Source: a virus
Strand: one strand, 5' to 3'
IMG/VR virus record: IMGVR_UViG_3300025407_000020
Coordinates: 49,556 to 113,555 of that record
Length of the DNA stretch: 64,000 nt
Positions 13,709 to 38,222 of the stretch are shown here, one piece after another. The position numbers and the translations under genes were made by a program. The number at the start of each line of letters is the position of its first letter. The stretch's first letter is position 1. The notes beneath the pieces are model-generated. The model was given only the letters and a program-made list of their open reading frames with translations. It ran no database searches and had not been told where the DNA came from.

Positions 13709-16417
13709 TTATCCGAAACTAAACAAGTCATCAAATGTGCTATTAGTATTGGTATCGCTGCGAATGTCCCAGTCAAGAACGCCTAGCAAGTTGTCAATCT
13801 TCTCGTCAACTAGCTTGCGTTCCATGTCAAGATCATCAAAGGGAAGATCAAGGAACCATTGCGGAAGACGAAGTTCATCTGTTGGATATGCCACATTAGT
13901 AAAGCCCAGTGGATTATCCTTCAATGAGCAAACGATAACCTTCATGCCGTCTACAATCTTTTGACTATACTGGTCACCGTTCATCTTACGTAAATAGTTG
14001 TAGTTAATAGCTGCTCTTGCATGACCAACCGCACACTTACCAGTCTTTTCAAACTTGATAGTGTGATTAGTTAGATTGTTGACACTCTTAGGAGAACCCT
14101 TAGTCCAACTATCTTGCTCACTCAGCCACTTCTTGAATTCACGAATTTTAGCTACAACTTCCTCTCTAGTAGAACCACCTAGTACCATCTTAAGAACTTC
14201 CATTAGGAATTCTTGAACATACTTGGGAGTATCTGCTCTTTTAAGATCAAGACCCATAGCCTTGATCTTACCCATCTTGCCGTCAATATCTTGACGCTTG
14301 CCTTCTAAGTCAAAGATGTTGATTGCATACCGCTTCTTAGTGATAAAGAGGGTGCGATCACCGATAAGTTCACGCCCAGCTTTAATCACTTCGCCGTTCT
14401 TACGAGGGCAGTGAAATGCACGTTCCATGAAAGCAGGGAAGCTAGCGTTAGTCAACTCTGCAATTTGGTCATACAAGTCAATGCAAGTTTCCTTAGTCCA
14501 TGTAAGTTCGCCTGAATCAATCTGATCCTTCAAGATCGGATATGCAGTGAAGTAGCAACTGTCAGTATCGCCATACACAATCGCATCACCGTCGTGTTGA
14601 TACTTTTCTGCGATAGTTTCATTGATCTGGCTCATCATGTGCTTAACGACTTGACGACCACTCAACGTAACTGATTGACCAATACGCTTATCGTAGAATC
14701 TACAGTGTTCGTTTAGAAGTGCGCCATATGCTGAGTTAAGCAAAATCTTACGGACTAGCTGTCGCTTGTCGTAATACTCAAACATATCAGTGCCATACGC
14801 AGCCTTTGCTTCTTTCTGAATACTCTTACGTTCTGAATACCAGCGACTCAATAGACCTGGAATGATGCCTTCTTGTTCATAAGTGAAGATGGTGCCGTTC
14901 GCAGATAGAATCCACGGGCGACTACTATCAAAGATCATCTTCCAAATCTCAGCAGCAGACATTTCTACACTGCGACCATCTTCATAGTCAACAGTGAGCA
15001 TTGTCCCGCGCTCTTGGTTCATAATAGCAGTATATTCTAGCGATCCGAAGAGCCCTTCCCAAAGAATCGCTCCAGTAACTGCGTCAGCATCGTCTCCGTT
15101 CTTTTTCTTTCGCTTTTGTTTTGCGAGGGCGATGCTTTTTTCGTGCATGTATTGGTCTGTGAGGGTTTGTCGAACCTGTCCCACGATTGTTTCTGGGGCC
15201 ATGTTGAGTGCCCGGATTGCTGAGGGGTAGAGACTGTTGATGTCAACTGCTCCGACCCATTCGTGAATCCCCTTCTTGGGAACAGCAACATAAGCTCCGG
15301 CAGCTTGTTGTCCTTCACCGTAACTATCCTGACGCTTTTTGTCAGGAACGATGAATCCTCGTTCATGTGCTTCATTATAAATTGCCATTTCAATCATTGC
15401 CACCGAACCCATCACCGTCGGCAGCAGTACGGTGTTTTCGTGAGCTAGCGCATTTGCTAGATCAAGAAACTTTAGCTTGTTGTGAATCTTGAACACCAGC
15501 ATAGTATCCTGCCGGTTATACTCTACGAACTTCTTGAAGTCCTTGTTGTAAAGCTGATCAAGCGATCCTTCATATGGAGTCTTACGTTCACCTAGTTCAT
15601 ACTCACCGATTGCGTCTAGTGAATAGCTATGGCGAGATTCGTAGTTGTACTTCTTGTAGAGTTGCAGATAGTCCATATGAATACGACCAACAAAGTCGTA
15701 AGTCTGCTCTTCCTTACCAAAGCGTTCATAAGTACGAGGCTTAGGCATCTGACCAAGCAGACAGAACTTGCGAGTATCGTCCTTAGTCATGATTCGCTTA
15801 ACGCGATTCACGCAATAGGGAACGTCATACCCTTCTGAGTTCCAACCAGTAACAACGTCTGCATCCTCAATTAGATCAAAGAACGTCTCAAACATTTCAA
15901 TTTCAGAGCGAAACAGAAAACAGTTTGGAAAGTCCTTAGTCAATTCCTGTGCAGTCTCATCGGTCATATGCTTCGGAGGAATGACTAGCGTAACAAGTTG
16001 CTCAAGCCAATCCAGATAACAAGTGATTGCTGTTACTGAGTTGAATGGATCACTGGTTGGACTATAACCCTTCTCCGGGTCAAAGTCCACTTCAATATCG
16101 AAGAAGCAAGTGTGCAGTTTGGGAGGTTCAACCTTAAGATAGTTGTCAGACAAACATCTGAATACTACGTTAACATCGCTTTCAAACAACCTCTTGCCGC
16201 GATGGATCCTCTTCTCCTTCTCAAACTCTTGTTTCTTACGAGTAGAGAAACGAGATACATTATCTCCATAGATAGAGCGATACTTACCCTTCGGGTCTTC
16301 GTGATAGAAAACATAGTTCGTACTATATTCTCTATAGGCGCGTTTACCCTCGGGAGTACGCTCTACTACGTAGATTTTATCTGCATTGGAATCTAGGACA
16401 GCATCAACGTATGACAT
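13709..16417 (-). CDS. 43: Family B DNA polymerase (T4 gp43-like)
   Basis: A 902-residue replicative polymerase, close to T4 gp43 in length (898). The 3'-5' exonuclease shows CFFDIEVDFD (Exo I), VVTGWNSEGYDVPY (Exo II) and YNRQDTMLV (Exo III). The polymerase shows AVDINSLYPSAIRALN (motif A), KILLNSAYGALLNE (motif B) and VYGDTDSCYF (motif C). It copies the phage genome with the clamp (12694-13428) and the loader (50467-51396). The start overlaps the stop of the DsbA-like gene at 16417. No intein or other insert is apparent. Confidence 0.97.
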   Translation of the reverse strand: MSYVDAVLDSNADKIYVVERTPEGKRAYREYSTNYVFYHEDPKGKYRSIYGDNVSRFSTRKKQEFEKEKRIHRGKRLFESDVNVVFRCLSDNYLKVEPPKLHTCFFDIEVDFDPEKGYSPTSDPFNSVTAITCYLDWLEQLVTLVIPPKHMTDETAQELTKDFPNCFLFRSEIEMFETFFDLIEDADVVTGWNSEGYDVPYCVNRVKRIMTKDDTRKFCLLGQMPKPRTYERFGKEEQTYDFVGRIHMDYLQLYKKYNYESRHSYSLDAIGEYELGERKTPYEGSLDQLYNKDFKKFVEYNRQDTMLVFKIHNKLKFLDLANALAHENTVLLPTVMGSVAMIEMAIYNEAHERGFIVPDKKRQDSYGEGQQAAGAYVAVPKKGIHEWVGAVDINSLYPSAIRALNMAPETIVGQVRQTLTDQYMHEKSIALAKQKRKKKNGDDADAVTGAILWEGLFGSLEYTAIMNQERGTMLTVDYEDGRSVEMSAAEIWKMIFDSSRPWILSANGTIFTYEQEGIIPGLLSRWYSERKSIQKEAKAAYGTDMFEYYDKRQLVRKILLNSAYGALLNEHCRFYDKRIGQSVTLSGRQVVKHMMSQINETIAEKYQHDGDAIVYGDTDSCYFTAYPILKDQIDSGELTWTKETCIDLYDQIAELTNASFPAFMERAFHCPRKNGEVIKAGRELIGDRTLFITKKRYAINIFDLEGKRQDIDGKMGKIKAMGLDLKRADTPKYVQEFLMEVLKMVLGGSTREEVVAKIREFKKWLSEQDSWTKGSPKSVNNLTNHTIKFEKTGKCAVGHARAAINYNYLRKMNGDQYSQKIVDGMKVIVCSLKDNPLGFTNVAYPTDELRLPQWFLDLPFDDLDMERKLVDEKIDNLLGVLDWDIRSDTNTNSTFDDLFSFG

Positions 16418-16674
16418 CAGTTAGTCTTACCAACGGTCTCCAGGATGTTGTTGAGTTCTTCGTTTTCTTCATTCGTCTCATTGAGACGCTGCTTGTAAGC
16501 AATCTTGATAGCCTTCTTAAGAATCGAGGGCTTGACTTCAAGTTCTTCTGCAATTGCCTTAACAGTATCGTTAAGACCTTCGTTGAGAGTTTCGACTTCT
16601 TGAATAACCGAGATACCCTCGTTGATGAGCTGGGTCAACTTGACCTTAGCTTCTTGATTAAATGTACGTGACAT
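16417..16674 (-). CDS. DsbA-like double-stranded DNA-binding protein
   Basis: An 85-residue protein starting MSRTFNQEAKVKLTQLINEG, all helical, with a middle segment (LEVKPSILKKAIKIAYKQRL) resembling T4 DsbA, which binds DNA near late promoters. The similarity is by layout and length and is not strong. AAGGAG precedes the ATG by about 6 bases, and the gene is coupled to the polymerase by a 1-base overlap. Confidence 0.55.
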   Translation of the reverse strand: MSRTFNQEAKVKLTQLINEGISVIQEVETLNEGLNDTVKAIAEELEVKPSILKKAIKIAYKQRLNETNEENEELNNILETVGKTN

Positions 16675-16739
16675 GTTTTCTCCTTCTAGTCTAGTTATTA
16701 TAACAGACTACGCAGAGAATTCAACTATATTGGTAACCG

Positions 16740-17318
16740 TTATTGAAAGATATAGTGATGCTTTTCGCCGTAAATCTTAATATATTTCCCAGCAAGCATA
16801 TCAGCCATTGCTTCTATAGGTGAGCCAGGATAGCTATCACCTGGCTTGATCATGCCTAGTTCGCTTTGACGGCAGTGTACGATTTCGTGAAATACTGTGC
16901 GAAGGATATCTACAAGATTGCGATTCTTTGCATATACCCAGATAGTAGGATCACCCTCAATATGACGACCAGTGTGATGATTGTCTTGGGCATCCTTAGT
17001 GTCATAGCTTAAGTCAATCTTGATTGGATTCTCTAAGTGTACTCTACGCATTGCCCACTCGGCAAACTTTTGTACTTCTGCATCAAGGTCAAGATTATCT
17101 TTATCAGATTCATCTAGCTTGCCCTTAACCCAAGTATCAGGTGTTTTCTTGTACTTTTTGACAAATAGATCATGCAATGCTTTACCTGTGATCTTGTGCT
17201 TTTCAGCAATCTTACGCATCAACTTATCTATGGTGTCATAGTCGTGCTTGGCTAGAGAAGGTAACTTCTCAGCCAGTTCGTCAACAGGGGATTCTATAAT
17301 GAATTGTTTAGCTCGCAT
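16740..17318 (-). CDS. Zinc metallopeptidase-like protein with capsid-targeting N-terminus
   Basis: A 192-residue protein starting MRAKQFIIESPVDELAEKLP. The first nine residues end in I-I-E, matching the T4 capsid-targeting peptide (M-K-x4-FI-x-E) that is cut by the head protease after (L/I)xE. The C-terminal half has TVFHEIVHCRQSELG, an HExxH zinc-peptidase motif, followed by PIEAMADMLAGKY, which could supply the third ligand (E). It is likely packaged in the head and injected; its target is unknown. The GATAAATA box at 17324-17331 ends only 5 bases upstream of the ATG at 17318, so late RNA would start close to or inside the gene unless transcription begins elsewhere. Confidence 0.7.
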   Translation of the reverse strand: MRAKQFIIESPVDELAEKLPSLAKHDYDTIDKLMRKIAEKHKITGKALHDLFVKKYKKTPDTWVKGKLDESDKDNLDLDAEVQKFAEWAMRRVHLENPIKIDLSYDTKDAQDNHHTGRHIEGDPTIWVYAKNRNLVDILRTVFHEIVHCRQSELGMIKPGDSYPGSPIEAMADMLAGKYIKIYGEKHHYIFQ

Positions 17319-17329
17319 CAATATATTTA

Positions 17330-17878
17330 TCAAATGCGGAGCATATATGCGATTTCAGGCGGAATCCAAGGTTCCTTCATCCTTTCTGGATTCCAAACAA
17401 TGCCTGCGATGTTACCATTGATAAACGCTTCTGGATTACCCAAGTAATCTAAGCAAAGAATGTTTGCACTATCAGGTAGACTTTTGATGCAGTAGCCATG
17501 ATTGCTGTTAACTTCGCGTACTTCTCTATGATAGAAGATGGGATGATCCAATCCATTGTGATTATTAATCGGTTCAACTGTGCCACCGATCATTTCCGCA
17601 GCTAAAAAGGCACCTCTCGCAATACCCACGACAGGTTTGCCACGTTCAAGCATCTTGTTAGCTAGTTCTATTTCAACGTTACGTCTTGTTGCGTTGTCAT
17701 TTCCAGCAGTGATAATCAATGAGTCTAGGTCATTGGCCATTGCATTGAAGTCTTGATTCATTGTGTTGGGGACGACAAATAGGCTATGCCCACGAATGGT
17801 ATTGTACCATCCCTGCTCAATGGCATCATAAGTCACACCATCTTGGGTGATTACAGATTTACTAAGGCCTATCTTCAT
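17330..17878 (-). CDS. Class I glutamine amidotransferase-like protein, active site apparently lost
   Basis: A 182-residue protein of the GATase1/gamma-glutamyl hydrolase fold. SLIITAGNDNATRR corresponds to the first substrate loop, and GKPVVGIARGAFLAAEMIGG to the nucleophile elbow where G-x-C-x-G is expected; the cysteine is alanine here. The catalytic histidine motif (W-H-P-E) reads VWNPERM, so the histidine is asparagine. Both changes argue against amidase activity; a binding or regulatory role is possible. AAGG lies before the ATG at 17878. It sits just after the curli-like operon terminator in transcription order. Confidence 0.7.
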   Translation of the reverse strand: MKIGLSKSVITQDGVTYDAIEQGWYNTIRGHSLFVVPNTMNQDFNAMANDLDSLIITAGNDNATRRNVEIELANKMLERGKPVVGIARGAFLAAEMIGGTVEPINNHNGLDHPIFYHREVREVNSNHGYCIKSLPDSANILCLDYLGNPEAFINGNIAGIVWNPERMKEPWIPPEIAYMLRI

Positions 17879-17892
17879 AGATATATTTAGAC

Positions 17893-17927
17893 AAAAAATA
17901 ACGGCGAGGATTTTACTCCCCGCCGTT
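17893..17927 (-). terminator. Rho-independent terminator after the curli-like operon
   Basis: On the minus strand AACGGCGGGG pairs with CCTCGCCGTT (one G-U pair, 8-base loop) and is followed by ATTTTTTG. It lies 25 bases past the stop of the porin gene and closes the operon that starts near 26235. Confidence 0.85.
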
Positions 17928-17951
17928 AGTAAAGTGACTATTAAGTGTTAC

Positions 17952-18674
17952 TTAGAAGTTCTTCTTCAAAGAAACAACAAAGTTATTTCCATAAAGTCCA
18001 TGACCATTAACACTGTTGTATGCCTTCATGCCTGCACCTTCATTGGTGTTGACATAGTAAAGACCAGTAACAGTGAATCCCTTAGGGAGATTATAGCTAG
18101 CGCCGAAGTTAATGTCATTATAGTCGTAGTTATTGTGGTGTGCAGTGAACGTATGACCATAGTGTGCGATCAAAGTAACTGGACCAACTGGCTGAGAAAC
18201 ATCAGCAGTTACATAATGAGTGCCATGGGTATTTGGAATACCAAAGTAGTTAGTGAAAGAGTGGCTACCCTTTACAGTAACTGGACCATATGTAGCAGCA
18301 AGATATGCTTCACTAGTAGTATACGAAACATTACCGTTCTTAGCATGGAAGTAAGTGTCAGTGTAAGAACCTACGTCAAGAGTAAGACCCTTAGCAACTT
18401 CATGCTTGTATCCAACGTAAAAATCTTCTTCGTAACCAGCCCCACCGGTGTAATATTCACTAGAAACGTTACTAAAGAACGTGCCTGCATATAGACCGCT
18501 CTTATCAGTAACGTCAAGGTTACCCGATACTTCAGGTCCTACGTTAGTTTGGCTGACGCCGCGATAACGATAGTCTGACGAAACAGTGATATTGCCGGAA
18601 AGATCAGTAGCGTGTGCAGCGGAAGCGAATCCAAGAGCAGCAACTACTGCGAGAATAGTCTTCTTAAAAATCAT
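17952..18674 (-). CDS. TorF-family putative porin, outer-membrane beta barrel
   Basis: A 240-residue exported protein. A signal peptide (MIFKKTILAVVAALGFASAAHA) is followed by DLSGNITVSSDYRYRGVSQT, the hallmark start of the Gcw_chp/TorF putative porin family, then many alternating hydrophobic strands, and a C-terminal phenylalanine (FVVSLKKNF), which the BAM machinery recognises. It would sit in the host outer membrane. This family is bacterial; a phage copy at the end of a curli-like operon is unusual. AAAGGA is 6 bases before the ATG at 18674. An inverted repeat (ATGCA-tac-TGCAT) lies in the leader. Confidence 0.85.
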   Translation of the reverse strand: MIFKKTILAVVAALGFASAAHATDLSGNITVSSDYRYRGVSQTNVGPEVSGNLDVTDKSGLYAGTFFSNVSSEYYTGGAGYEEDFYVGYKHEVAKGLTLDVGSYTDTYFHAKNGNVSYTTSEAYLAATYGPVTVKGSHSFTNYFGIPNTHGTHYVTADVSQPVGPVTLIAHYGHTFTAHHNNYDYNDINFGASYNLPKGFTVTGLYYVNTNEGAGMKAYNSVNGHGLYGNNFVVSLKKNF

Positions 18675-18767
18675 AGTATATCCTTTATATGATAGAGACA
18701 TGCAGTATGCATGAGTCTTCTATACTATTTACAGTATTATTGCATTAACTGCAATTTATTTGGGCAA

Positions 18768-18977
18768 TTACTTGCAATTATAATGATAGCCAAACACGCC
18801 ACGTGGACCAGGAGTCCAACTTGGGCCAGTTAGCTTGCAGTTTGCTTCATTCTTAGCTGGAACAAAAATTGCCATCTTGTTTGCACCCTGTACCCAATGT
18901 CCCTTAGGGGCTGGGGTAGACGCACATGCAGATGTTGCTCCCATTAGAACAGCAGTTGCTAGTAGTAGTTTCTTCAT
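18768..18977 (-). CDS. Small exported protein (69 aa)
   Basis: A 69-residue protein starting MKKLLLATAVLMGATSACAS, a clear signal peptide; the cysteine at position 18 could make it a lipoprotein, though the lipobox (T-S-A-C) is weak. The mature part has two cysteines (NCK, YNCK) that could form a disulfide and a WTPGPRGVFGYHYNC end. AAGGAG precedes the ATG at 18977. It lies between the cyclase and the porin. Function unknown. Confidence 0.7.
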   Translation of the reverse strand: MKKLLLATAVLMGATSACASTPAPKGHWVQGANKMAIFVPAKNEANCKLTGPSWTPGPRGVFGYHYNCK

Positions 18978-19004
18978 TTTACTTCTCCTTTTTAGCAACC
19001 CTAC

Positions 19005-21059
19005 TTATTTAGAAGTTGCTCTATACACGCCGTCCCAGTTACTTGGTGGGTTAGCCTTGTATTCTTCAATTCTTTCAATCATTGCATCATAGTACTTATC
19101 TAATTCACCATTCCAAGATTTCTTTAAGTTATGAGCAAAAGTTTCTGCTGTTTCCCACTCACCCTTACGATAATAATCTAGGAAGCGAATATGAGCTTTC
19201 TCATCTTCTTCATAAAAACTCTCAAGAACAGTGTAGATTTTTACAGGTTCTGTCTTTCCCTTGACTGCAAGTAAGTCAAGTTCAATGACTTGGTATGTAT
19301 GTCGTACATACTCGGCGGTCTTTGGTCCAATGATGATTTTGACGCCATATGGTTTGCTTTGACCTTCGAGACGAGACGCCAAATTAACTCCGTCACCGAG
19401 GCAAGTATAGTCAAAACGCTGATCACTACCCATATTGCCAACAACAACGGTATCAGTATTAATACCGAGACCCATTCCAAAAGCTGGTATGCCTTCTTCT
19501 TTAATTTCTGCATTGAAGTCCTCTAACGATTTAAGCATTTGGAACGCAGTTCTTACTGAGTCCAATGCATGTTGCTCATTGTTCAATGGTGCGTTCCAGA
19601 AAGCCATTTGAGCATCACCGATATACTTATCAAGCGTACCCTTGTTTTCTAAAATTGCCTTAGTCATAGCAGTCATATAGCGGTTCATGATCTTTGTCAA
19701 GCCTTGAACATCTTTACCATAGTGTTCACTAATTGTAGTGAATCCACGAACGTCGGTGAACATAATTGATAGTTCTTGTTCGGTGCCGCCTAGTTGTAGT
19801 AGGTCAGGTTGACGCTGCAATTGTGCGACAAGATCAGGTGACAAGTAAGTACCAAACTGTTTCTTAATCTGTTGCTTTTGAAGGAACTCACTAATAAACT
19901 TTGCAGTATAGATATGCATATAAATAAGCACTGCTGCAACAACGTTGAATGAAATGTCAACTAGAATCTTGTTGTGTGCATATAGATAATATGGTGCGTA
20001 TACATAGCCTGCTAGTAATATAAGTATCCAAACTATAGAGTAGCGTACTCTTGATAGAATGATGATTGCAAGTGAAAGGATGAAGAATGCAGCAAGATCA
20101 ACCAGACTTACCCAATTCGGAATTGACACTGAATCCCCATTTATCAACGTCTGAAGAAGACTGGCCTGAAGCTGATGCGGCATTTGGGCACCATTTGGAG
20201 TTGCTACGGGATTTACAACGCCATTCGCAGTCACACCGAGTAGAACGATCTTACCATCGAGACGAGGAATATTCTCGCCTACTTCAAACGATGAGAATAC
20301 GTAATTCGGGTTCGTAAAAACGCGACCATATTCATCAGTTTTAATAGTATTGAAAGAAGGAACACGTAATGCCTCAACACCTGTCTGATTTACCTTCGCT
20401 TGGTATGAAGGATCTCCTGACGCAACTCGAATTAACTCAAGCCCAAACGCAGGATAAAATTCGCCTTTTGATTGGGCAAGCAGGGGTACACGACGAACAA
20501 CACCATCAGATTCAGGAAGAGTTGAAGTTATACCTACCCCTACGGCAGCATCTTGAAAACTTGAGATATTGGATAAGACACATGGATATTGAGGTAAGAA
20601 CTCGGATGGTTGCCCGTCCCCAATCACAGCAACTCCAGTCCGACGAATCGTTTGGTCTTTCCTTGATGCAGAGCAATCCGACGTTACAGTCTGACTAAGT
20701 ACAACCGGATACTTCTTTAGTGTATCTACTAGTACGTGGTCGGTGCCAAAGCGATCAGATTCAGGCATAAGAATAGTACTGCCGACAAGACCAGCACCTC
20801 TGCCATAAATATCAGTAATAATCTTAGCATAAACTTCCCTTGGAAAAGGATACTGCCCATATTTCTCAATCGCTTTCTCCCCGATATTTGCAACTACAAT
20901 CTGTTCCGAATGTACTGGCTTACCTAGCATCAAATAGTCATAGAACTTAAGTTTCATTGCGTCAACCATATATGGATTGCTTAACTTAACAACAAGAAGT
21001 AATCCTACTGTAAATAATGCTAGCCAGGGACTCAATAAAACTTTCTTTAACTTATTCAT
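19005..21059 (-). CDS. CHASE2-domain adenylate cyclase (class III)
   Basis: A 684-residue membrane protein. After one N-terminal membrane segment comes an extracytoplasmic CHASE2 sensor (about residues 25-320, with FYDYLMLGKPV and GKIVLLGVTANG), three membrane segments (about 320-395), then a class III cyclase domain. Catalytic motifs are MFTDVRGFTTIS and KYIGDAQMAFW (metal aspartates and the substrate lysine), and YTCLGDGVNLASRLEG (aspartate for adenine, N and R for catalysis), so it should make cAMP. A TPR-like tail follows. AAAGGA precedes the ATG. In bacteria such cyclases often sit beside FecR-domain genes, as here (22254-23417). A phage-borne copy is unusual. Confidence 0.93.
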   Translation of the reverse strand: MNKLKKVLLSPWLALFTVGLLLVVKLSNPYMVDAMKLKFYDYLMLGKPVHSEQIVVANIGEKAIEKYGQYPFPREVYAKIITDIYGRGAGLVGSTILMPESDRFGTDHVLVDTLKKYPVVLSQTVTSDCSASRKDQTIRRTGVAVIGDGQPSEFLPQYPCVLSNISSFQDAAVGVGITSTLPESDGVVRRVPLLAQSKGEFYPAFGLELIRVASGDPSYQAKVNQTGVEALRVPSFNTIKTDEYGRVFTNPNYVFSSFEVGENIPRLDGKIVLLGVTANGVVNPVATPNGAQMPHQLQASLLQTLINGDSVSIPNWVSLVDLAAFFILSLAIIILSRVRYSIVWILILLAGYVYAPYYLYAHNKILVDISFNVVAAVLIYMHIYTAKFISEFLQKQQIKKQFGTYLSPDLVAQLQRQPDLLQLGGTEQELSIMFTDVRGFTTISEHYGKDVQGLTKIMNRYMTAMTKAILENKGTLDKYIGDAQMAFWNAPLNNEQHALDSVRTAFQMLKSLEDFNAEIKEEGIPAFGMGLGINTDTVVVGNMGSDQRFDYTCLGDGVNLASRLEGQSKPYGVKIIIGPKTAEYVRHTYQVIELDLLAVKGKTEPVKIYTVLESFYEEDEKAHIRFLDYYRKGEWETAETFAHNLKKSWNGELDKYYDAMIERIEEYKANPPSNWDGVYRATSK

Positions 21060-21069
21060 AAACTATCCT

Positions 21070-22257
21070 TTAGTGTTTCGTGTATGTGTATCCAGTACAT
21101 GGGCCGGAAGTGCAAGTGATAGACATAGCAGCACTATCACTAGTAGTTGCGTTATCTTGAGTTACAGTTACGCCGATGTTATTATTATTTAGCGTTAAAG
21201 AGAACATTTTCTGTGCTGCGCCCGATTGTGTGACAGATACATTGTTTCCGCTCGTTGGTATGTTTAGTTCTAGAAAGTGATTGCCAGTACCTACCTGAGA
21301 AGTGTTTATGGTGTTATTATTGTTAGATACATTCTCAAACAAACTTTTATTACCACCTGATAACTGGTTGCTAATAACATTTGCGTTACCACTGATCAAT
21401 GCTTGTTCATAATTTGCGGTACCCTGCTGATTTATCGTCAAATTGTTCCCTGTTCCATTAATAGAACCTTCAACTAGGTTATGATACCCTGATATAGTCT
21501 GACTACCCTGTGTGACATTCAACGCATTTGATCCACCTGTGATAGTGAAAGATTGAGTACCATTAACTCCTCGTACAGCATTGAAGTCTCCCGTCTGAGT
21601 GACAGTGACATTTGTATTATCGCCACCTGATTGACTGATATAGACTGAATTGTAACCAATAGTTGTTGTCTGGTTGATCTTAGTTTGTTCGGTTGACGTA
21701 ATAGTTGCTAGAGGGTAGGTAGGAGCAGAAGTATATGTTTGACCTGCATTTAGTGGAGTAGTTGAACCACTACTAGCAAAACTATCAGTCTGTGTAGTTG
21801 TAGGATTCAATGTACCAGTAAAGCTGAATCCATTGTTGTTGGGAAAACCATAGTCAGTGCTGAATACAGTACCGTTATAGTTAGCGTTAGTGAAGAAGAA
21901 GAAATGGTGACCTGAGCTATCGGTACCTAATCCCTGCACAGTTAATTTGCCATTGCCTAGATTAGCGACAAGTGTTCCATTGCTATTATAGACTTTCATC
22001 GTCCAGGGGTAACTTGGATTGCCGCTCGGTGAGAACTGTATATACTGAGTTGATGAAAGATGATATGGTGATCCAGTATTCCAACTTGTTCCTATACCAC
22101 TGAGGCTATAGATTTGACAAGTATTCGTATATAAACAAGCACTGACATTCCATTGTGTATCGCTGAATTGTGCGGCACCAAACTTTAGATCAGCAAACGT
22201 AGTGGCATAGGCCATTGACGACCACAATAACATAAAGAGAGCAATTAACTTTCTCAT
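21070..22257 (-). CDS. Curlin-repeat protein with N-terminal exported domain
   Basis: A 395-residue secreted protein: signal peptide (MRKLIALFMLLWSSMAYA), a unique domain with two cysteines (about 20-180), then curlin-type repeats from about residue 200 (VYISQSGGDNTNVTVTQTGD, NLTINQQGTANYEQ, NNVSVTQSGAAQ), each with the N/Q-rich beta strand and turn pattern of CsgA/CsgB. It ends with a CTSGPCTGYTY disulfide-like tail. It may be an amyloid subunit or a nucleator passed through the CsgG pore. It overlaps the FecR gene stop as ATGA. Confidence 0.8.
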   Translation of the reverse strand: MRKLIALFMLLWSSMAYATTFADLKFGAAQFSDTQWNVSACLYTNTCQIYSLSGIGTSWNTGSPYHLSSTQYIQFSPSGNPSYPWTMKVYNSNGTLVANLGNGKLTVQGLGTDSSGHHFFFFTNANYNGTVFSTDYGFPNNNGFSFTGTLNPTTTQTDSFASSGSTTPLNAGQTYTSAPTYPLATITSTEQTKINQTTTIGYNSVYISQSGGDNTNVTVTQTGDFNAVRGVNGTQSFTITGGSNALNVTQGSQTISGYHNLVEGSINGTGNNLTINQQGTANYEQALISGNANVISNQLSGGNKSLFENVSNNNNTINTSQVGTGNHFLELNIPTSGNNVSVTQSGAAQKMFSLTLNNNNIGVTVTQDNATTSDSAAMSITCTSGPCTGYTYTKH

Positions 22258-23417
22258 TTGTTCATGTCCGGTGGAGCACCGTTCTGTATAACAGTGATAG
22301 TACCTTGGGGTCTACCTGTACCTGATGTAGTCCATTTGTGATCCATAAAGTTATATGCGTCAACGATGCCATTCTGTGATGATACGACTTGTACTTCTGA
22401 ATCTTTAGGGACCCAAACTCCTACTATCTGATTTTTATCATCAGATATTCTTGCATAGACCCAACCCTCTTGAATTTTCTTTCTATACGTGGGTGAAACG
22501 TTTGTGTATATGGTTTGTTTAGGTAACGCACCATTAATGTCCTCATAGACCTGTTCAATCTCAGCTTGCGTAGCCTGTCTTGGTTGAATAGCTATTGCAA
22601 CTTGTTCAACGTTGTCTCCTGTTCCGGAGTTAGGGTCCTTGTTATCATCTGATGCAGCTTTAGAAGGGTTAACAAACTTTTTTACTGCCTCTCTTGCTAC
22701 CTTAAGCAAGCTCTGCCCATCATCTGTAGCTAGTGGAGCAATCTGAATCGTATTGTTAAGTGCTTTCATTGCTGGATTAACGATGACCGGCGGACTTGGG
22801 GGAGCAAATGCATTCTCTACAACAGTTGCTTGGAATGGCTTAGTCATTGACACAACACCTGATGCCGTTATAACATCAATTGCGCCAGCTGGACAATCAA
22901 AGTTTGTTTTGGTAATATCTTTATCGTCAAAGCAACTTGGAACCAGAACAACTGTTGAGCGGCCAGCTTCATCAACACTCATAACAAAGTCTGTACCACG
23001 AACAGCAATAGTAGCAGTTGGTGTGCGAATGTTTACACCTTTTGGATTACCGTGAGCGAGAGCACCTGATGCATAGCGCACAGTGCCTAATGCTACCTTA
23101 AGTCCTAATTTTCCTTTAGCTTTATTGTTATTATCAAACACAAAGGCGTCAATGACAAGTCTACTATTTTCAGTAATGTTGACTGTAGTAGCGTCAACAA
23201 ACACTATCTTGAACTTGCCTTGACTATTAGTAGAGACAGTATCCATCTTTTCAATGCCGGCACCTCTACCAGCAGGCATAGCACTGGGCCCTCTTCTGAT
23301 CTGCCCTCCGCCTTTTGCCTCTGTTATGGAACCTATGCTTGCTAAAGCGGGTGAGGCTAAAGCAAGCAATAGGATTCCAAGAGTCTTAGTGACCAGTTTT
23401 GATATTGTAAACGCCAT
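22254..23417 (-). CDS. FecR-domain exported protein
   Basis: A 387-residue protein with a signal sequence (TLGILLLALASPALA) and a FecR domain (about residues 55-155: MDTVSTNSQGKFKIVFVDAT, SRLVIDAFVFD, VALGTVRYASGA, IRTPTATIAVRGTDFVMSVD). The rest is low-complexity linker plus a C-terminal domain. FecR proteins of this class often pair with CHASE2 cyclases, which is the case here two genes downstream. The start at 23417 lies 32 bases inside the upstream curlin gene. It could be the periplasmic partner that links the curlin products to cyclase signalling; that is inference. Confidence 0.85.
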   Translation of the reverse strand: MAFTISKLVTKTLGILLLALASPALASIGSITEAKGGGQIRRGPSAMPAGRGAGIEKMDTVSTNSQGKFKIVFVDATTVNITENSRLVIDAFVFDNNNKAKGKLGLKVALGTVRYASGALAHGNPKGVNIRTPTATIAVRGTDFVMSVDEAGRSTVVLVPSCFDDKDITKTNFDCPAGAIDVITASGVVSMTKPFQATVVENAFAPPSPPVIVNPAMKALNNTIQIAPLATDDGQSLLKVAREAVKKFVNPSKAASDDNKDPNSGTGDNVEQVAIAIQPRQATQAEIEQVYEDINGALPKQTIYTNVSPTYRKKIQEGWVYARISDDKNQIVGVWVPKDSEVQVVSSQNGIVDAYNFMDHKWTTSGTGRPQGTITVIQNGAPPDMNK

Positions 23418-24180
23418 TAGACCCTACACTTTGAATGTGAACAACAGTTTCTGACGCACCATACTGCTGCGTTGTTACCGTGTTGTTGCTTCCAGTGAAG
23501 TTGGCCCATAAACTGTGCCCGTATGTGCCGGCCGTATCAGTTTGTGTTACATTGATAGTGTTGCTATCACCAGTGAAATACAAGTTCTGTGAAGAATTAG
23601 GAGCAGTGACAGTAACAGTAATTGCATTATTGTTGCCGTTAGTATCAATTGTTTGTGTAATGTTTGCTGCTGCGCCGTGGAATGCAAGAGTATTGTTGTT
23701 ACCAACAAACTTGTCATTTAGATTCAATCCATTACAATTTGCATCATTCTGATAAGTTCCGCAACGAATATCAGCACTGTTGTTGTTTCCAATCTGTCTA
23801 ATAGTAGAATTGGTGCCTGTTCCTGCGCCAGTATCACCGACAATACCCATTAATAGTGTGTTGCTGTTACCAGTTTGAATAACAGTAACAGCGTTGCTAT
23901 CACCACGTAGATAGATAGGATCAGCTAATGTGCCGACTATATCAGCAGTGCCAGTCTGTTGAATGTTGACATTCACACTACCGCCTGACTGATTGATGTA
24001 TACTTTGTTAGTTGTTGCCACTGCTGCTGCTTCAACTTCGTTCGGTGAAGTAGTTACAATAGCAGGAGGAGTCGGCGCAGTAGGAAGAACTGCTGTAGTA
24101 GGAGTGCTTGCTTGCTGAGCAAATGCAGTGCCCGATACCAACAACGAACCAAGAATTAGTGCTTTCATTATTATTTTCAT
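23386..24180 (-). CDS. Curlin-repeat protein (CsgA/CsgB-like)
   Basis: A 264-residue secreted protein. The signal peptide is MKALILGSLLVSGTAFA; after a proline- and alanine-rich linker come at least seven curlin-like repeats starting at about residue 58 (VYINQSGGSVNVNIQQTGTA, NAVTVIQTGNSNT, NTINVTQTDTAG). The repeats have the X-N-X-x-x-x-x-Q-x-G spacing of amyloid subunits. AAGGA is 8 bases before the ATG at 24180. It lies directly downstream of csgG, as curlin genes do in bacterial operons, although order and orientation differ from E. coli. Confidence 0.85.
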   Translation of the reverse strand: MKIIMKALILGSLLVSGTAFAQQASTPTTAVLPTAPTPPAIVTTSPNEVEAAAVATTNKVYINQSGGSVNVNIQQTGTADIVGTLADPIYLRGDSNAVTVIQTGNSNTLLMGIVGDTGAGTGTNSTIRQIGNNNSADIRCGTYQNDANCNGLNLNDKFVGNNNTLAFHGAAANITQTIDTNGNNNAITVTVTAPNSSQNLYFTGDSNTINVTQTDTAGTYGHSLWANFTGSNNTVTTQQYGASETVVHIQSVGSNGVYNIKTGH

Positions 24181-24191
24181 CGTTATAATCC

Positions 24192-25019
24192 TTATTTTGT
24201 TGCTTTAGTAATAGTGGTTTTATAGTGCCAAAGTCCTTTCTTTTCACCACTTTTAATTAGTTCTGCTACACCGAGTTCTATGGCACTGCGTATAGCATAA
24301 CTTCCCGGTTCGTTTGCTGTTTGCTGCCCGTCAAGTTCAAATGCTTGTGTTCCTAAATCAAAGAACTTAAAAGCAGTGATCCCTTCAGATGTTGATAGTA
24401 CTGTCTTGGTTACAGTAACACTATCTAGCACTTCACCGGTTTGTGTTGATACAAGTCGCATACTGATGACGACCATATCTTCACTGTACTGAGTGTTCGG
24501 ACCTATTCCTAAGTAACGAACACCATTACCTCCTGTTTTAGTGTTACTATTGTAATCAATAATACCACCTTCAATGATAAGGCCTGCAACCATTAATGGC
24601 GGCAGAGGTTCAGCCTTTTCACCGAATTCTTGTTCACGCATTTGACGAATCAATTGACGTTCTTTAATGAGACTATCAATGCCAACACGTTCAACTGGTT
24701 TAAACCATTTGCCGCCTGCCGCATCACCCAATGTCTTGATTAGATAAGCCTCACCGCCTTGTGTTACTGCGCTACTAAATGACGCTGTAGTTGATGATGG
24801 CTTTCTTTGTCCAGTCTTATCTGTGAATGCATATACTGCAATAGGAATTGGTGGCCCATCTAATTCAGGAATAGAATCGAACACTTTTTTATTAGCAAAA
24901 GTAACTACTTTTGGCTTAGAGCGTAATAATTCGTTGTCTTGGTTTAGTCTAGGATGTATTGCACCAACACACCCTGTAAGCATCGTGGTAGCAGCTAATA
25001 ATAGAATAAGTTTCTTCAT
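24192..25019 (-). CDS. csgG: CsgG-like curli secretion channel lipoprotein
   Basis: A 275-residue outer-membrane lipoprotein: lipobox signal (MKKLILLLAATTMLTGC), then IPIAVYAFTDKTGQRK and GGEAYLIKTLGDA ... WFKPVERVGIDSLIKERQLIR, and GGIIDYNSNTKTGGNGVRYLGIG covering a transmembrane hairpin, then MVVISMRLVSTQTGEVLDSV. These are the CsgG core motifs; nine subunits form a 36-strand pore in E. coli. Length equals E. coli CsgG (277). It lies next to CsgF and curlin genes. It could also be used as a lysis or DNA-exit pore, as has been suggested for phage CsgG copies (from memory). Confidence 0.95.
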   Translation of the reverse strand: MKKLILLLAATTMLTGCVGAIHPRLNQDNELLRSKPKVVTFANKKVFDSIPELDGPPIPIAVYAFTDKTGQRKPSSTTASFSSAVTQGGEAYLIKTLGDAAGGKWFKPVERVGIDSLIKERQLIRQMREQEFGEKAEPLPPLMVAGLIIEGGIIDYNSNTKTGGNGVRYLGIGPNTQYSEDMVVISMRLVSTQTGEVLDSVTVTKTVLSTSEGITAFKFFDLGTQAFELDGQQTANEPGSYAIRSAIELGVAELIKSGEKKGLWHYKTTITKATK

Positions 25020-25029
25020 AACTTACTCC

Positions 25030-25476
25030 TTAAAACGCAAACGTAGCAATCGGAACTGTTACTACAGTTTGATTACCCGTCTTGTCTATTACAGTAAGTT
25101 GAACATTAGTTCCTGTTTTCACATAGCTAATAGTGTTACCATCTAAGTTAAATGTGCCAGTAGTAGCCGAGCCACCTGTTTGAAATAGATTATTAGACAA
25201 CTGTGTAGCAAGTTGTGCATATACTTGGCTAGTGAATAGATTGATGAACTTTGCTAATGGAGTATTTGCAGCGGCTGATACAGCATTTGCTTGAGCAGTA
25301 GCAATAGCATTATCGTTTGATGCTTTATGTGCTTCCATTGCTGCTTCAACTTGTAGGACATGAGTAGACCAGCCATAGCCACTAAAGGATGGGTCTTTGA
25401 ATTGCTGTACTATTGGATCTGCATATGCTGTACTACTTGCACATAGAGAAAGTAATATCATTATTTTTCTTATCAT
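25030..25476 (-). CDS. csgF: CsgF-like curli assembly protein
   Basis: A 148-residue exported protein: signal peptide (MIRKIMILLSLCASSTAYA), then DPIVQQFKDPSFSGYGWSTH, equal to the CsgF motif (F-R-N-P-N-F-G-G), a helical centre and a final TGTNVQLTVIDKTGNQTVVTVP that matches the CsgF C-terminus. CsgF plugs the CsgG pore and passes CsgB to the surface. The start is the ATG at 25476, with AGGGAG 7 bases before it; the frame extends upstream to 25563 but that part overlaps the previous gene. Confidence 0.93.
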   Translation of the reverse strand: MIRKIMILLSLCASSTAYADPIVQQFKDPSFSGYGWSTHVLQVEAAMEAHKASNDNAIATAQANAVSAAANTPLAKFINLFTSQVYAQLATQLSNNLFQTGGSATTGTFNLDGNTISYVKTGTNVQLTVIDKTGNQTVVTVPIATFAF

Positions 25477-25492
25477 TATTCTCTCCCTAGTA

Positions 25493-25801
25493 TTATTTCT
25501 TATGTTCTTCTGCTTTCTTTGGCTGGTTGATAATATGTTCTGCTTCAACACGTTCATGCTCAATAGTCTTACCGCGCAAGTGCAATACGGTGTTCACTTT
25601 TTGATTTAAACGAATCAAGTCATTGTCTAGCATTCTAATGCGATCAATTAGAGCAATCAACGTGGTATTAGCTTCACTGAGAACAGGCTTAACTTCTTTG
25701 GTTGCCCACTCCCATACATAATATATGAGGTATCCCATGCCGCCAGCAGCAATGATGGGGAATCCATATTTGTTGATTAAGTCTGCTAATCCACTGCCCA
25801 T
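25493..25801 (-). CDS. Small membrane protein with coiled-coil tail (YvrJ/holin-like)
   Basis: A 102-residue protein starting MGSGLADLINKYGFPIIAAG with one membrane segment (about 12-32) and a long charged helix (VLSEANTTLIALIDRIRMLDNDLIRLNQK). The NKYGFPI start and single span recall YvrJ/BhlA-type small phage membrane proteins. The protein at 25954-26235 has the same design (VAQVGFPIAAACGAGYFVF, then DNRVKTMNHDVIRID), so the pair are paralogues. Being first in the csgFG operon, they could be holin-like or assist secretion; the sequence does not decide. Confidence 0.7.
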   Translation of the reverse strand: MGSGLADLINKYGFPIIAAGGMGYLIYYVWEWATKEVKPVLSEANTTLIALIDRIRMLDNDLIRLNQKVNTVLHLRGKTIEHERVEAEHIINQPKKAEEHKK

Positions 25802-25954
25802 TTATTTCTTCTTCTTTACCAATATCACACGTTCATCACGTATAAACGCAACAAACTCGTCTCCTTCCTCAACCTTCAAATGTCTGGACGCATCTTCATC
25901 TATCGTGATGCTTCCATTATTATGAACGTCTAGCCAACATTCTACAATAAGCAT
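25802..25954 (-). CDS. AbrB/SpoVT-like small DNA-binding protein (50 aa)
   Basis: A 50-residue protein starting MLIVECWLDVHNNGSITIDE and continuing with DASRHLKVEEGDEFVAFIRD, matching the swapped-hairpin AbrB/MazE pattern (x-G-x-I-x-I-P-x-x-x-R-x-x-L-x-x-x-x-G-D). Its ATG overlaps the upstream stop (TAATG) and its stop directly precedes the next ATG, so the reading frame is certain to be used. It is a candidate regulator of the curli-like operon; no target sites are known. Confidence 0.7.
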   Translation of the reverse strand: MLIVECWLDVHNNGSITIDEDASRHLKVEEGDEFVAFIRDERVILVKKKK

Positions 25955-26235
25955 TAGTCTCTCCTTGCATCCGTCTTACCATCAGCACGAGCAATGCGAT
26001 CTACGTCTGGTTTTAGGCCAAGAGCATTACTAACTACTGTATCAATTCGAATGACATCATGGTTCATTGTCTTAACACGATTGTCAAGAGAAGAAATGAT
26101 CCCTTTCATGCCTGATACGCTACCAGACACACCCGCAAGAATAAACTTCAATGTAAGGAATACGAAGTAACCAGCGCCACATGCAGCAGCGATTGGAAAG
26201 CCAACCTGGGCTACTAAATTAAAGAACTCTCCCAT
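25954..26235 (-). CDS. Small membrane protein with coiled-coil tail, first gene of curli-like operon
   Basis: A 93-residue protein starting MGEFFNLVAQVGFPIAAACG, one membrane segment then a helical tail; a paralogue of the 25493-25801 product. AGGAG is 5 bases before the ATG at 26235, and the longer frame to 26286 runs through the leader hairpin. It is the first gene of the operon that ends at the terminator at 17893-17927. Confidence 0.7.
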   Translation of the reverse strand: MGEFFNLVAQVGFPIAAACGAGYFVFLTLKFILAGVSGSVSGMKGIISSLDNRVKTMNHDVIRIDTVVSNALGLKPDVDRIARADGKTDARRD

Positions 26236-26341
26236 TCGTACTCCTATTGTATTATAGGAAACCCGTAGATTAACTACGGGCTTCATATGTATTTAGCAAT
26301 ATGGGAGTAAAAATAACTACACGGTTTTGACGTAGGTCAAA
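26236..26341 (-). promoter_or_regulatory. Leader of the curli-like operon: inverted repeat, late-like box and hairpin
   Basis: Three elements lie in this 106-base gap. TTTGAC-N4-GTCAAA (26326-26341) is a perfect inverted repeat, like the TTGAC-N4-GTCAA sites of FNR/FixK-type regulators. CTAAATAC (about 26289-26296) resembles the late box. A 7-bp stem (CCCGTAG / CTACGGG, 26262-26280) sits before the ribosome site. I see no clear sigma-70 -10. Confidence 0.45.
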
Positions 26342-26671
26342 TTAACGGTAGATACTCTTATGCATAGTGTTACGCTTCATAGTACGAAGTGCTTCCTTGA
26401 AGTGTTCTAGGCTCTGAGTTGCAACCTTCTGCAATTCTTCACGCTCAAACGGCTTCATTGAATCATAGCCGTTTAGGAAGTCAGCCATAACAGCAACAGG
26501 GATGCTCACCTTATCACCGTCCTTGAAGATAACAGGCGAACGACCACCGTTGTCAAGAGCCTTCTTGAACTGCATTACGATGTGAGGAACCTTATCAGTA
26601 TCCGGATCGTCTACGATGTCAAGTTCTTCTTCGTCATCAAACGATTCCATGAGCAGTTCGTTAATCTTCAT
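26342..26671 (-). CDS. Capsid-targeting-type protein (109 aa)
   Basis: A 109-residue acidic protein starting MKINELLMESFDDEEELDIV; L-M-E at 7-9 fits the (L/I)xE head-protease cleavage site of a capsid-targeting peptide. The rest is helical with no recognised domain. A GATAAATA box lies at 26699-26706, 28 bases upstream of the ATG. It is probably an internal head protein. Confidence 0.6.
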   Translation of the reverse strand: MKINELLMESFDDEEELDIVDDPDTDKVPHIVMQFKKALDNGGRSPVIFKDGDKVSIPVAVMADFLNGYDSMKPFEREELQKVATQSLEHFKEALRTMKRNTMHKSIYR

Positions 26672-26757: not shown

Positions 26758-27948
26758 TTATGCCATTGGCTCAAATAATAATTGGCCAGGCTTAGCAAAC
26801 ACTAGCTTGCCATCTTGGTTACGCATTGCAACCTCTAGTTGCTCAATGATTTCCGGTGTAAAGTGTCTGGCTCTGATTTCTCCGTAACCAAAGATATGAA
26901 CTTCACATGGCTCATCACCTTCTACTTTCTGAATAGCGAGCATACGATTGCGACCTTCATGCCCTACAACTTGTGCATAGTTCAAGCCAGTGAAGTCACC
27001 ATCAAAGTATTTTTCAGGAATGTCAATGATCAAGAATGGAGAACCTAAACTTCCACCCTTTTCCATGTGCTGTACGATATAATCAACGCTTGTTGGACTT
27101 GGAAGATGTGCAGCAAGTGATAAGAAGTCACTTGGCTTCATCAATACTCTTAATCCACGATAGTCTACGTTACTGTTATAACCAGTGGTGCCAAGTCCCT
27201 TACCGTTTATATCGTTATCAGCTTTGTATTCGTCTAACTCATCTTCTCTAACATATGCTAGTTGATGTAGTGCTTGAAACTTTTTATCTCTGTCGGCTAA
27301 TCCATGAAGACCAGAGTTGATATGTTTAGTAGCCTGTTCTGTGTCAGTGAAGTCATTTACCTTAGGTGATACACGATGCTGCCAAAACCATAATGCAACC
27401 TTAGCTGCTACATTAGGCTTCTCAACTAACTCAGGATGTTTCTCTAATGGAAGTCCTAATGCAGTGCCTGCTTTCTTGTAGTTTTCACGACCAGTTAATT
27501 GAATAAATCCGCGCCCATGATATTTGACACCATCACCGGGATTAGTATTTCCTAGTATTGCTGCTTTCTTTGGTGCATATTTTGGATCATATTTTCTAAA
27601 GTCTAATGAGCCGCCGAACTCTTTCAATGAAGAAAAGTTCTGAGTTTCGTGGGCGCATTGTGCCATGAACTGTTGCAACTCTGCACCCTTCAACCCTGCT
27701 TTAATAGCAGCATTTTTTAATATCTTTGCAGCGGGCTTATTCATGATTGCTTTAACTTGATGCAATACATTAGCAGCTAGTGGTTTTGGTGCGGACAAAT
27801 CAATTCTAGTAACAGGCTGAAAGTCATTTTTTGGCTTCATAAGAGAATGAGCACCTAATGCTAATGCACCAGCCGCGCCTACTGTGCCTAGAGTTTTCTT
27901 CCAGTCTTCATCCAACTGTTGACTGGTTATGAATTCATTAGCTCTCAT
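26758..27948 (-). CDS. GH19 glycoside hydrolase with capsid-targeting N-terminus
   Basis: A 396-residue protein. The N-terminus MRANEFITSQQLDED fits the capsid-targeting pattern (L-D-E at 12-14). Residues about 70-250 form a GH19 chitinase/lysozyme domain: QQFMAQCAHETQNFSSLKE has the catalytic HET glutamate, YHGRGFIQLTGRENYKKAG the substrate-binding loop, ALWFWQHRV a conserved helix. The C-terminal domain (about 280-396) has VVGHEGRNRMLAIQK, a motif seen in phage proteins of unknown role. It cuts peptidoglycan, and being head-targeted it could act on entry or in assembly, unlike the endolysin at 57798-58421. Confidence 0.8.
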   Translation of the reverse strand: MRANEFITSQQLDEDWKKTLGTVGAAGALALGAHSLMKPKNDFQPVTRIDLSAPKPLAANVLHQVKAIMNKPAAKILKNAAIKAGLKGAELQQFMAQCAHETQNFSSLKEFGGSLDFRKYDPKYAPKKAAILGNTNPGDGVKYHGRGFIQLTGRENYKKAGTALGLPLEKHPELVEKPNVAAKVALWFWQHRVSPKVNDFTDTEQATKHINSGLHGLADRDKKFQALHQLAYVREDELDEYKADNDINGKGLGTTGYNSNVDYRGLRVLMKPSDFLSLAAHLPSPTSVDYIVQHMEKGGSLGSPFLIIDIPEKYFDGDFTGLNYAQVVGHEGRNRMLAIQKVEGDEPCEVHIFGYGEIRARHFTPEIIEQLEVAMRNQDGKLVFAKPGQLLFEPMA

Positions 27949-37449: not shown

Positions 37450-37457
37450 TATTTATC
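37450..37457 (-). promoter_or_regulatory. Late promoter-like box GATAAATA
   Basis: GATAAATAC, 26 bases before the ATG at 37424 and overlapping the last codon of the homing endonuclease gene. Confidence 0.6.
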
Positions 37458-38193
37458 AGCCGCTGACTATTCTCCATCCTTTAGCATGACTATATTTTCC
37501 ATTAATAACTTGGCTGATATTGCTTTTTAGTTCCGGATACGTTGAGGTCATCTCTAATCTAGTAGCAGTTAGTTGTTCTCCGGTATTAATGTTTTCCCAA
37601 AGATATACAGTATCTACATATCTAGGATTATTTTTCCCCAACGGCTTTTTATCCGGATTGTTTTTATAAAAAGTTTTTCTACCATTACTATAGTTGGTGT
37701 GCATCTGTTCTGTCATCACTCTATTAGCAGACGCCGCCCGTTGTATTTCTTTAGTTTCATCAGTGTGTTTACGACCGTAGAAGGGATTATTTTTACCTTT
37801 GTGTTTTTCGCTCATATACTTGCTATGTAGAATAGCTGCTTCCGCACGTATCGCAGCTATTTCGGGAATTAGGTTATCTCCTATTATTCTTTGTTGTGTT
37901 TTACTTTGCGGATTAGCCATTCGCACAGCAGCTAGTGTCATCTTCCTAATGTTCTTTTCTTCACTGACCATTTTAGGTAATAGCAAATGAACTCTTAAGT
38001 GTTCCTCCGCAGTTAACCACACTAAGTTAGATTTCTCGTCGGTGCCTCCCATTGATTTAGGTATTATGTGATGACGTTCGGTATAAGTTAGTATGGTCTT
38101 TGCTTCTCTCCTAGAAGCAGATTGCGGAACTCTTGTAATAGCATGATTGACAATATCATAGTATTGTTCAGTAAAGTTGTTTTCCAGGTACAT
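37456..38193 (-). CDS. HNH homing endonuclease with NUMOD motifs
   Basis: A 245-residue endonuclease. The HNH domain is TERHHIIPKSMGGTDEKSNL followed by VWLTAEEHLRVHLLL (H-H ... N ... H). It is followed by NUMOD3-type repeats (KGKNNPFYGRKHTDETKEIQ, GKNNPRY) and a NUMOD1-like DNA-binding end (NINTGEQLTATRLEMTSTYP). AAAGGAG precedes the ATG at 38193; the frame extends upstream to 38223 through the promoter, so the shorter start is chosen. It lies between the capsid-targeted gene and a glycosyltransferase. Confidence 0.88.
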   Translation of the reverse strand: MYLENNFTEQYYDIVNHAITRVPQSASRREAKTILTYTERHHIIPKSMGGTDEKSNLVWLTAEEHLRVHLLLPKMVSEEKNIRKMTLAAVRMANPQSKTQQRIIGDNLIPEIAAIRAEAAILHSKYMSEKHKGKNNPFYGRKHTDETKEIQRAASANRVMTEQMHTNYSNGRKTFYKNNPDKKPLGKNNPRYVDTVYLWENINTGEQLTATRLEMTSTYPELKSNISQVINGKYSHAKGWRIVSG

Positions 38194-38205
38194 TGCAATC
38201 TCCTT

Positions 38206-38222
38206 TGATAATCTATTTATCA
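38206..38222 (-). promoter_or_regulatory. Late promoter inside a hairpin before the HNH gene
   Basis: TGATAAATAGATTATCA on the minus strand: TGATAA pairs with TTATCA (5-base loop), the 5' arm is the GATAAATA box, and AAAGGAG overlaps the 3' arm. A late start would remove the hairpin arm. Confidence 0.5.

Follow-up and report, generated by a model that had tools for sequence, protein, structure and literature searches.

The window considered here, a 64,000-nucleotide stretch comprising bases 49556–113555 of the 113,555-base virus record IMGVR_UViG_3300025407_000020, carries a phage-borne curli-type operon in which a secretion pore and its amyloid-like substrates are encoded together with a FecR protein and a CHASE2-domain nucleotide cyclase. 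We favor, at a probability of roughly 55%, the reading that infected cells secrete adhesive amyloid fibers bearing variable binding heads, with FecR and the cyclase acting as an envelope sensor. An adhesive amyloid is the best-supported role because the substrates, the pore, the assembly factor and a variable head are all present. The reading draws on a complete set of CsgF, CsgG and two exported curlins, a core gene order that is kept among relatives, ratios of nonsynonymous to synonymous substitution rates (dN/dS) of 0.05–0.11, a ladder-like model of the first curlin, exchanged heads on the second, retained catalytic residues in the cyclase, and the pairing of FecR with CHASE2 cyclases in bacteria.

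The operon consists of ten genes arranged head to tail on the minus strand, running from position 26235 down to an intrinsic terminator at 17928–17899 in the order tm1, tm2, csgF, csgG, curA, fecR, curB, CHASE2 cyclase, a small putatively exported protein and a TorF-family porin. An earlier note on this DNA had counted eleven genes in the interval; the tight spacing and single terminator that it described are borne out, the terminator being strong, with gaps from tm1 to the porin of −71 to +152 nucleotides between the longest reading frames. The −71 overlap vanishes once the likeliest CsgF start is used, the ATG at 25476 (148 residues, good Shine–Dalgarno sequence) in place of 25563; Shine–Dalgarno sequences also guided the choice of starts for tm1 (26235) and the small protein (18977), and the porin most likely starts at 18674.

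25954–26235, minus strand: tm1, 93 residues, single membrane segment, conserved helical tail (phrog_18771, 1.4e-32; paralogue of tm2; linked to csg genes)
25493–25801, minus strand: tm2, 102 residues, paralogue of tm1 with the same linkage (phrog_18771, 3.9e-31)
25030–25476, minus strand: csgF, pore-associated curli assembly protein (Pfam CsgF, 59 bits; Shine–Dalgarno sequence; FKDPSF motif)
24192–25019, minus strand: csgG, lipoprotein, outer-membrane curli secretion pore (Pfam CsgG, 169.5 bits; E. coli CsgG structures, 1e-43)
23386–24180, minus strand: curA, signal peptide and curlin repeats, likely fiber subunit (Curlin_rpt, 21.9 bits; AlphaFold2 ladder)
22254–23417, minus strand: fecR, predicted exported FecR-domain protein (Pfam FecR, 46.7 bits; N-terminal hydrophobic segment)
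21070–22257, minus strand: curB, signal peptide, N-terminal module at about residues 20–200, C-terminal curlin repeats (family membership; module swaps)
19005–21059, minus strand: cyc, predicted inner-membrane CHASE2 class III adenylate cyclase (CHASE2, 115.8 bits; Guanylate_cyc, 70.1 bits; catalytic residues)
18768–18977, minus strand: small protein of 69–70 residues, putatively exported (Shine–Dalgarno start; three loci of the window phage only)
17952–18674, minus strand: TorF-family putative porin (TIGR02001, 110.5 bits; three loci of the window phage only)
17899–17928, minus strand: intrinsic terminator closing the operon (12-bp stem with seven G–C pairs, loop of 6, TTTTTT tail)

Gene families and conservation of the cassette

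The curli-like identity proposed in the earlier note is confirmed by Pfam. The two families on which it hinged, CsgG and CsgF, score 169.5 and 59 bits against cut-offs of 20.8 and 25.8, and the CHASE2 (115.8; cut-off 26.3), Guanylate_cyc (70.1; 21.9), FecR (46.7; 24) and Gcw_chp/TorF (123.6; 24) domains are likewise clear, the porin also matching TIGR02001 at 110.5 bits (cut-off 47.15). Both proposed curlin-repeat proteins have signal peptides; CurA passes the Curlin_rpt cut-off of 20.7 bits at 21.9, but the repeats of CurB fall below it at 14.7, and it is CurB homologues in the same iterative family, such as those of HTVC008M and the IMG/VR relative L022, that exceed it. CsgF retains its FKDPSF motif near the mature N terminus, and CsgG matches the E. 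coli CsgG structures at 1e-43, so that a CsgG pore, a CsgF with a pore-binding motif and curlin-repeat subunits, each a feature of curli, or type VIII, secretion, are found in the window. A match between the CsgG lipoprotein signal region and the Cor exclusion protein family (E=0.004) spans the first 22 residues only and is not informative. AlphaFold2 renders CurA as a regular strand–turn–strand ladder, as expected for curlin repeats, with a predicted local distance difference test (pLDDT) score of 77.6 and values higher than 90 in much of its C-terminal half.

The possibility, raised in the same note, that the locus is a bacterial assembly artefact was checked and is rejected: two more metagenome contigs (L005 and L006) carry an identical CsgG in the same neighborhood, a phage DNA polymerase gene adjoins the operon, and many phage relatives share the cassette with its core gene order.

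Among 80 IMG/VR relatives retrieved with the window CsgG, the six core genes stand as csgF–csgG–curlin–fecR–(curlin)–cyclase in almost all loci with room, and nearly all of 80 relatives found with the HTVC008M CsgG have the same arrangement. Loci of csgFG with enough downstream sequence carry a curlin gene. In close pairs, the median dN/dS is 0.05–0.11 for all eight genes (tm1 from two pairs), which shows the cassette, by this measure, to be under purifying selection. The description of the operon as a complete cassette therefore holds for the curlins, FecR and cyclase, which are selected as a unit, but not for the porin: together with the small protein, it is private cargo outside the conserved system, since both turned up only in the window phage and in two other contigs belonging to it. 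Conversely, the pair of small membrane proteins encoded first in the operon, missing from the note's title, are in fact constant members. In one relative (L054), an open reading frame that by eye resembles PstS-type phosphate-binding proteins lies between curB and the cyclase (14014–15003).

CurB modules, possible cyclase signaling and the tm pair

First, comparison of CurB proteins shows a chimera in which C-terminal repeats are joined to N-terminal modules exchanged between phages, because the two parts differ in relatedness from pair to pair. The window protein and that of L022 share 63% identity in the repeats and 22% in the N-terminal part (20% when shuffled), whereas against L055 the values are 25% and 46%; in two further pairs the repeats are 37% (L058 and L261) and 25% (L244 and L073) identical and the N-terminal parts 78% and 68%. 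Recognized members range from 86 to 764 residues. Ahead of the curlin repeats, PA14 (Pfam cut-off 24 bits) is found in HTVC008M (27.7), L022 (52.5), L226 (30.2) and L266 (45.2), and F5/8 type C (cut-off 28.2 bits) in L229 (36.6); at E<=0.01, four of 25 diverse members have the former and five the latter. In other members the module is unnamed, with two more such types present in the HTVC008M-type set, and the CurB proteins of Melnitz, L009 and L249 have none. Such heads were found in none of 30 bacterial curlins, and their swapping is new as far as the literature searched shows. PA14 and F5/8 type C both occur in carbohydrate-binding proteins, which makes a role of CurB as an adhesin likely. 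The window's own module has no match in sequenced phages and, among 12 records searched, is held by its own record and three related ones. Near the cassette of L243, a 677-residue signal-peptide protein (16394–18427) has a CurB-type N-terminal module and is not recognized as a curlin.

Second, the cyclase appears competent. It combines a CHASE2 domain with the motifs FTDVRGFT, LDKYIGDA and GDGVNLASRLE, which contain the residues that in such enzymes serve as the two metal-binding aspartates, the substrate-binding lysine and the transition-state asparagine and arginine. Adenylate cyclase activity is predicted on these grounds, and a threonine seven residues before the asparagine suggests subclass IIIb. 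In a tree, the cyclases of curli loci, including one from Hyphomonas, form a single group apart from other CHASE2 cyclases. FecR genes also stand beside related CHASE2 cyclases in several bacterial genomes, at short loci in which curli genes are not visible but beyond which they may lie, and this pairing suggests that FecR may regulate the cyclase.

Third, the cassette has two overlooked companions, whose constancy is new as far as the literature searched shows. The tm1 and tm2 genes encode paralogous proteins of about 93–110 residues, in which a single membrane segment leads into a conserved helical tail, ahead of csgF; among 50,697 phage records the family matches only those of HTVC008M and Melnitz. 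When viral loci are fetched by tm alone, csgG lies within the flank in 51 of 80, and most of the others have the cyclase. Of 20 such records searched whole, all those longer than 100 kb contain csgG, the four that lack it being 17–63 kb. In the converse search, tm was present in 16 of 20 csgG records; three of the exceptions are 28–46 kb long and the fourth has csgG at a contig end. Across the 134 loci with both, the median gap is 69 bases, with tm on the same strand before csgF in 58 and on the opposite strand beside the cyclase in 67; in the HTVC008M-type set, tm is upstream of csgG in 74 of 74 loci with room. The pair thus accompanies the phage cassette almost without exception, and that these are dedicated membrane partners of it is the best explanation. 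One or two genes labeled "HK" have been placed before csgF (PMC9599517); because the tm genes occupy that position, they are probably the same family. A domain search of tm1 and tm2 found no kinase domain, histidine kinase included. Of holins of the BhlA/UviB/YvrJ type, YvrJ matches four of 16 members, at best with E=0.07, and a PHROG holin matches tm2 at E=0.009; both values fall short of usual thresholds, and so faint a resemblance to holins is no basis for a conclusion.

Possible roles during infection

How might these parts work together? During infection, CurA and CurB would be exported by the host Sec system, cross the CsgG–CsgF outer-membrane pore and polymerize as amyloid on the infected cell. 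The N-terminal module of CurB would be displayed on the fiber and, being exchanged between phage lineages like tail-fiber tips, could make the fiber stick to different surface sugars or neighbors. The exported FecR and the inner-membrane CHASE2 cyclase, with its periplasmic sensor, may form a sensor that reports on the envelope or the pore through a cyclic-nucleotide signal, to be read by host receptors. The phage would most likely profit because infected cells adhere to, or aggregate with, further hosts; masking of the surface could come as a by-product. Of all this, gene content and order, purifying selection, the swapping of CurB modules and the linkage of tm are read from the sequence, and fiber formation, binding of sugars, activity of the cyclase, the path from FecR to the cyclase and any gain for the phage are inferred. 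More tentatively, and at somewhat less than even odds, we propose that several unrelated phage lineages share a virus-controlled adhesion organelle: a retargetable adhesive amyloid, its CurB heads exchanged like tail-fiber tips, wired to a FecR–CHASE2 sensor and two phage-specific membrane proteins.

Several observations weigh against an adhesive amyloid coupled to a sensor. The strongest is that neither fibers nor clumping were seen in Melnitz infections (PMC9004378), a negative tempered by the fact that Melnitz CurB is headless. In the window itself, the CurB head has no named counterpart in Pfam, and the AlphaFold2 model of the protein is poor, its N-terminal part largely below a pLDDT of 50. 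Foldseek comparison of the CurA model with the PDB returned no solved curli structure and nothing below E=0.001, the weak beta-solenoid and beta-helix matches neither confirming nor refuting a curlin fold. CurB is short or missing in a minority of loci. CsgE (PF10627) was not found in the nine records searched, which reduces the likeness to E. coli and leaves membership in type VIII secretion intact, because CsgE is not a universal feature: it is reported to be absent from alphaproteobacterial and phage cassettes (PMC9599517). Finally, a phage-encoded cyclic AMP receptor, that is, a cyclic-nucleotide-binding protein, was not found in 12 records, so that a signal, if made, would have its reader in the host or work in some other way.

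Superinfection exclusion seems to us unlikely, if the most credible of the alternatives. Here the fibers or the pore would cover the infected cell, or change it, and thereby block adsorption by rival phages, and the modules would tie the coat to sugars on the surface of that cell. Such exclusion would use the same parts and has been proposed before (PMC9599517), but alone it leaves the exchange of CurB heads unexplained, unless the heads track the anchoring sugar.

A regulated exit pore, the least likely of the three roles offered by the earlier note, is improbable. CsgG belongs to an outer-membrane lipoprotein family, and pinholins act in the inner membrane. As formulated (PMC9004378), CsgG alone or with CsgF would set the time of lysis, as a channel resembling a pinholin or a secretin, and one could point to the endolysin-like GH19 gene just upstream in the window phage and to the faint holin-like similarity of tm1 and tm2. 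The endolysin gene, however, does not adjoin the cassette in HTVC008M or Melnitz; the premise that csgA and csgB are absent fails, as two curlin-repeat proteins are annotated in the very record of Melnitz; and the constant presence of curlins at csgFG loci with room conflicts with a pore acting by itself. Least probable, by a little, is nutrient import, with CsgG as an ungated outer-membrane channel for cofactors or iron compounds, an iron-linked regulatory role for FecR and a second channel in the porin: it was suggested because of FecR (PMC9599517) and could draw on the TorF porin at the operon end and the PstS-like frame inside the L054 cassette, but the porin is private to the window phage, FecR pairs with the cyclase here as it does in several bacteria, and the conserved curlins would be left unexplained.

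If the adhesive-fiber reading is true, viruses make and retarget extracellular amyloid during infection, which bears on why pelagiphages carry curli genes at all. The curlins in the cassette remove the premise of a pore-only model. The Melnitz negative leaves the matter unsettled for HTVC008M, whose CurB has a head where that of Melnitz has none. The modules also pose a testable question: does the head decide what an infected cell sticks to?

Carrier phages and counterparts of the cassette

Among sequenced phages, the polymerase gene beside the operon (13709–16417) has its closest relatives in jumbo phages, namely Sinorhizobium phage Phosso (47.5% identity) and Agrobacterium phage Atu_ph07 (46%), followed by 350-kb phages that infect enterobacteria and Xanthomonas. 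Its identity is 80% with the polymerase of an IMG/VR record of 360,683 bases that bears the same cassette (L008/G003), 79% with that of another carrier (L055/G011), and only about 30–35% with those of carriers of 130–170 kb (G007 and G008); the cassette csgG also occurs in further records of 285–383 kb (G655–G660). Given this kinship and the 80% match to the 360,683-base record, the window most likely comes from a jumbo-phage genome, of which it is a part. A literature search combining jumbo phage, curli and CsgG found nothing, and carriage of the cassette by jumbo phages is new as far as that search shows. The cassettes do not follow the polymerase: against L055, the window shows 79% identity in the polymerase, 58% in CsgG and 51% in the cyclase, whereas against L041 the polymerase is about 30–35% identical and CsgG, FecR and cyclase 73%, 67% and 74%. 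The simplest reading of this conflict, itself new, is that cassettes have been transferred or replaced between jumbo and smaller phages. A weak hint of the host comes from the porin, whose nearest plasmid-encoded relative is from Cupriavidus (36%).

Directly upstream of the cassette lie the GH19 gene (26758–27948) and a gene for a 976-residue amidoligase-domain protein (27948–30878), both of which remain upstream in the closest relatives with room. A T4-type late promoter (TATAAATA) was not found ahead of the operon, the window containing one against 4.4 expected, and sigma-70-like promoters are no commoner than in shuffled sequence (29 against 28.5); the best such match (26751–26723; 11/12, extended −10) is upstream of the gene at 26342–26671. 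Genes of the HNH homing-endonuclease type occur at 37456–38223 and 45628–46152. The DNA polymerase gene of the L011 record (G004:C1:46280-50697) is in two pieces about 1.6 kb apart, which suggests an intron or homing-endonuclease insertion. An unannotated, unverified "Salmonella phage" record of 1,499 bases (OR851715.1; L004) encodes a CsgG that shares 40% identity with that of the window and is of doubtful phage origin.

The window cassette belongs to a kind already described. Genes csgF and csgG were reported in pelagiphages with csgA and csgB taken as missing (PMC7029224), an absence repeated for Melnitz (PMC9004378), and the complete cassette, curlins, FecR and cyclase included, was described from podo- and myo-pelagiphages in 2022, with aggregation, exclusion or import as proposed functions (PMC9599517). 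The amyloid subunits, FecR and cyclase are accordingly not additions made here, as the earlier note had it, being already present in HTVC008M, Melnitz and that study; a claim to the first phage with curlins is rejected for the same reason. The window fits the published pattern of csgF, csgG, curlin, FecR, second curlin and cyclase. HTVC008M has csgF, csgG, a "curlin-associated protein," two hypothetical genes and the cyclase ordered as in the window, and pelagiphage cassettes of the HTVC008M and HTVC023P types share the small membrane genes and core order (PMC7029224; PMC9599517), whereas CsgF, CsgG, FecR and cyclase are only 37–46% identical and the window differs in its jumbo carrier, the N-terminal module of its CurB and its appended porin and small protein. 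The methylophage Melnitz is annotated with csgF, csgG, curlin repeat, FecR, curlin repeat and cyclase and has the tm pair upstream, but its CurB lacks an N-terminal module.

Bacterial counterparts are rare. FecR and the cyclase were said to be absent from bacterial type VIII secretion operons (PMC9599517). Countering this, a 705-kb contig (L090) of the metagenome-assembled genome (MAG) Hyphomonas sp. TMED17 carries csgF–csgG–curlin–FecR–CHASE2 cyclase, a finding new to the literature searched, which might reflect a binning error, although the cellular flanking genes argue against one. A gammaproteobacterial MAG (L138) has curlin–csgF–csgG–curlin–curlin–FecR. Strong matches to FecR and to the cyclase were found in one of 385 genomes of the class and one of 249 genomes of the order, respectively, in both cases the Hyphomonas genome. 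In a quick tree with long branches, other bacterial CsgGs lie outside a single group made up of the viral CsgGs, those of phage-like MAG contigs and those of two bacterial loci. Ten bacterial-MAG contigs (L085, L087–L089, L101, L104, L107, L118, L151 and L155), which have a phage-type cassette with tm or group with phages, are apparently phage contigs binned into bacterial genomes. The curli system of E. coli (csgBAC/csgDEFG) resembles the window in its CsgG and CsgF homologues and its exported curlin-repeat subunits; FecR and a cyclase are missing from its operon, whereas CsgE, CsgC and CsgD are part of the system. The Hyphomonas locus matches the window in gene kinds and order, with identities of 46% for the cyclase, 40% for CsgG and 35% for FecR, and differs from it in its cellular flanks, its single curlin and its lack of the tm pair.

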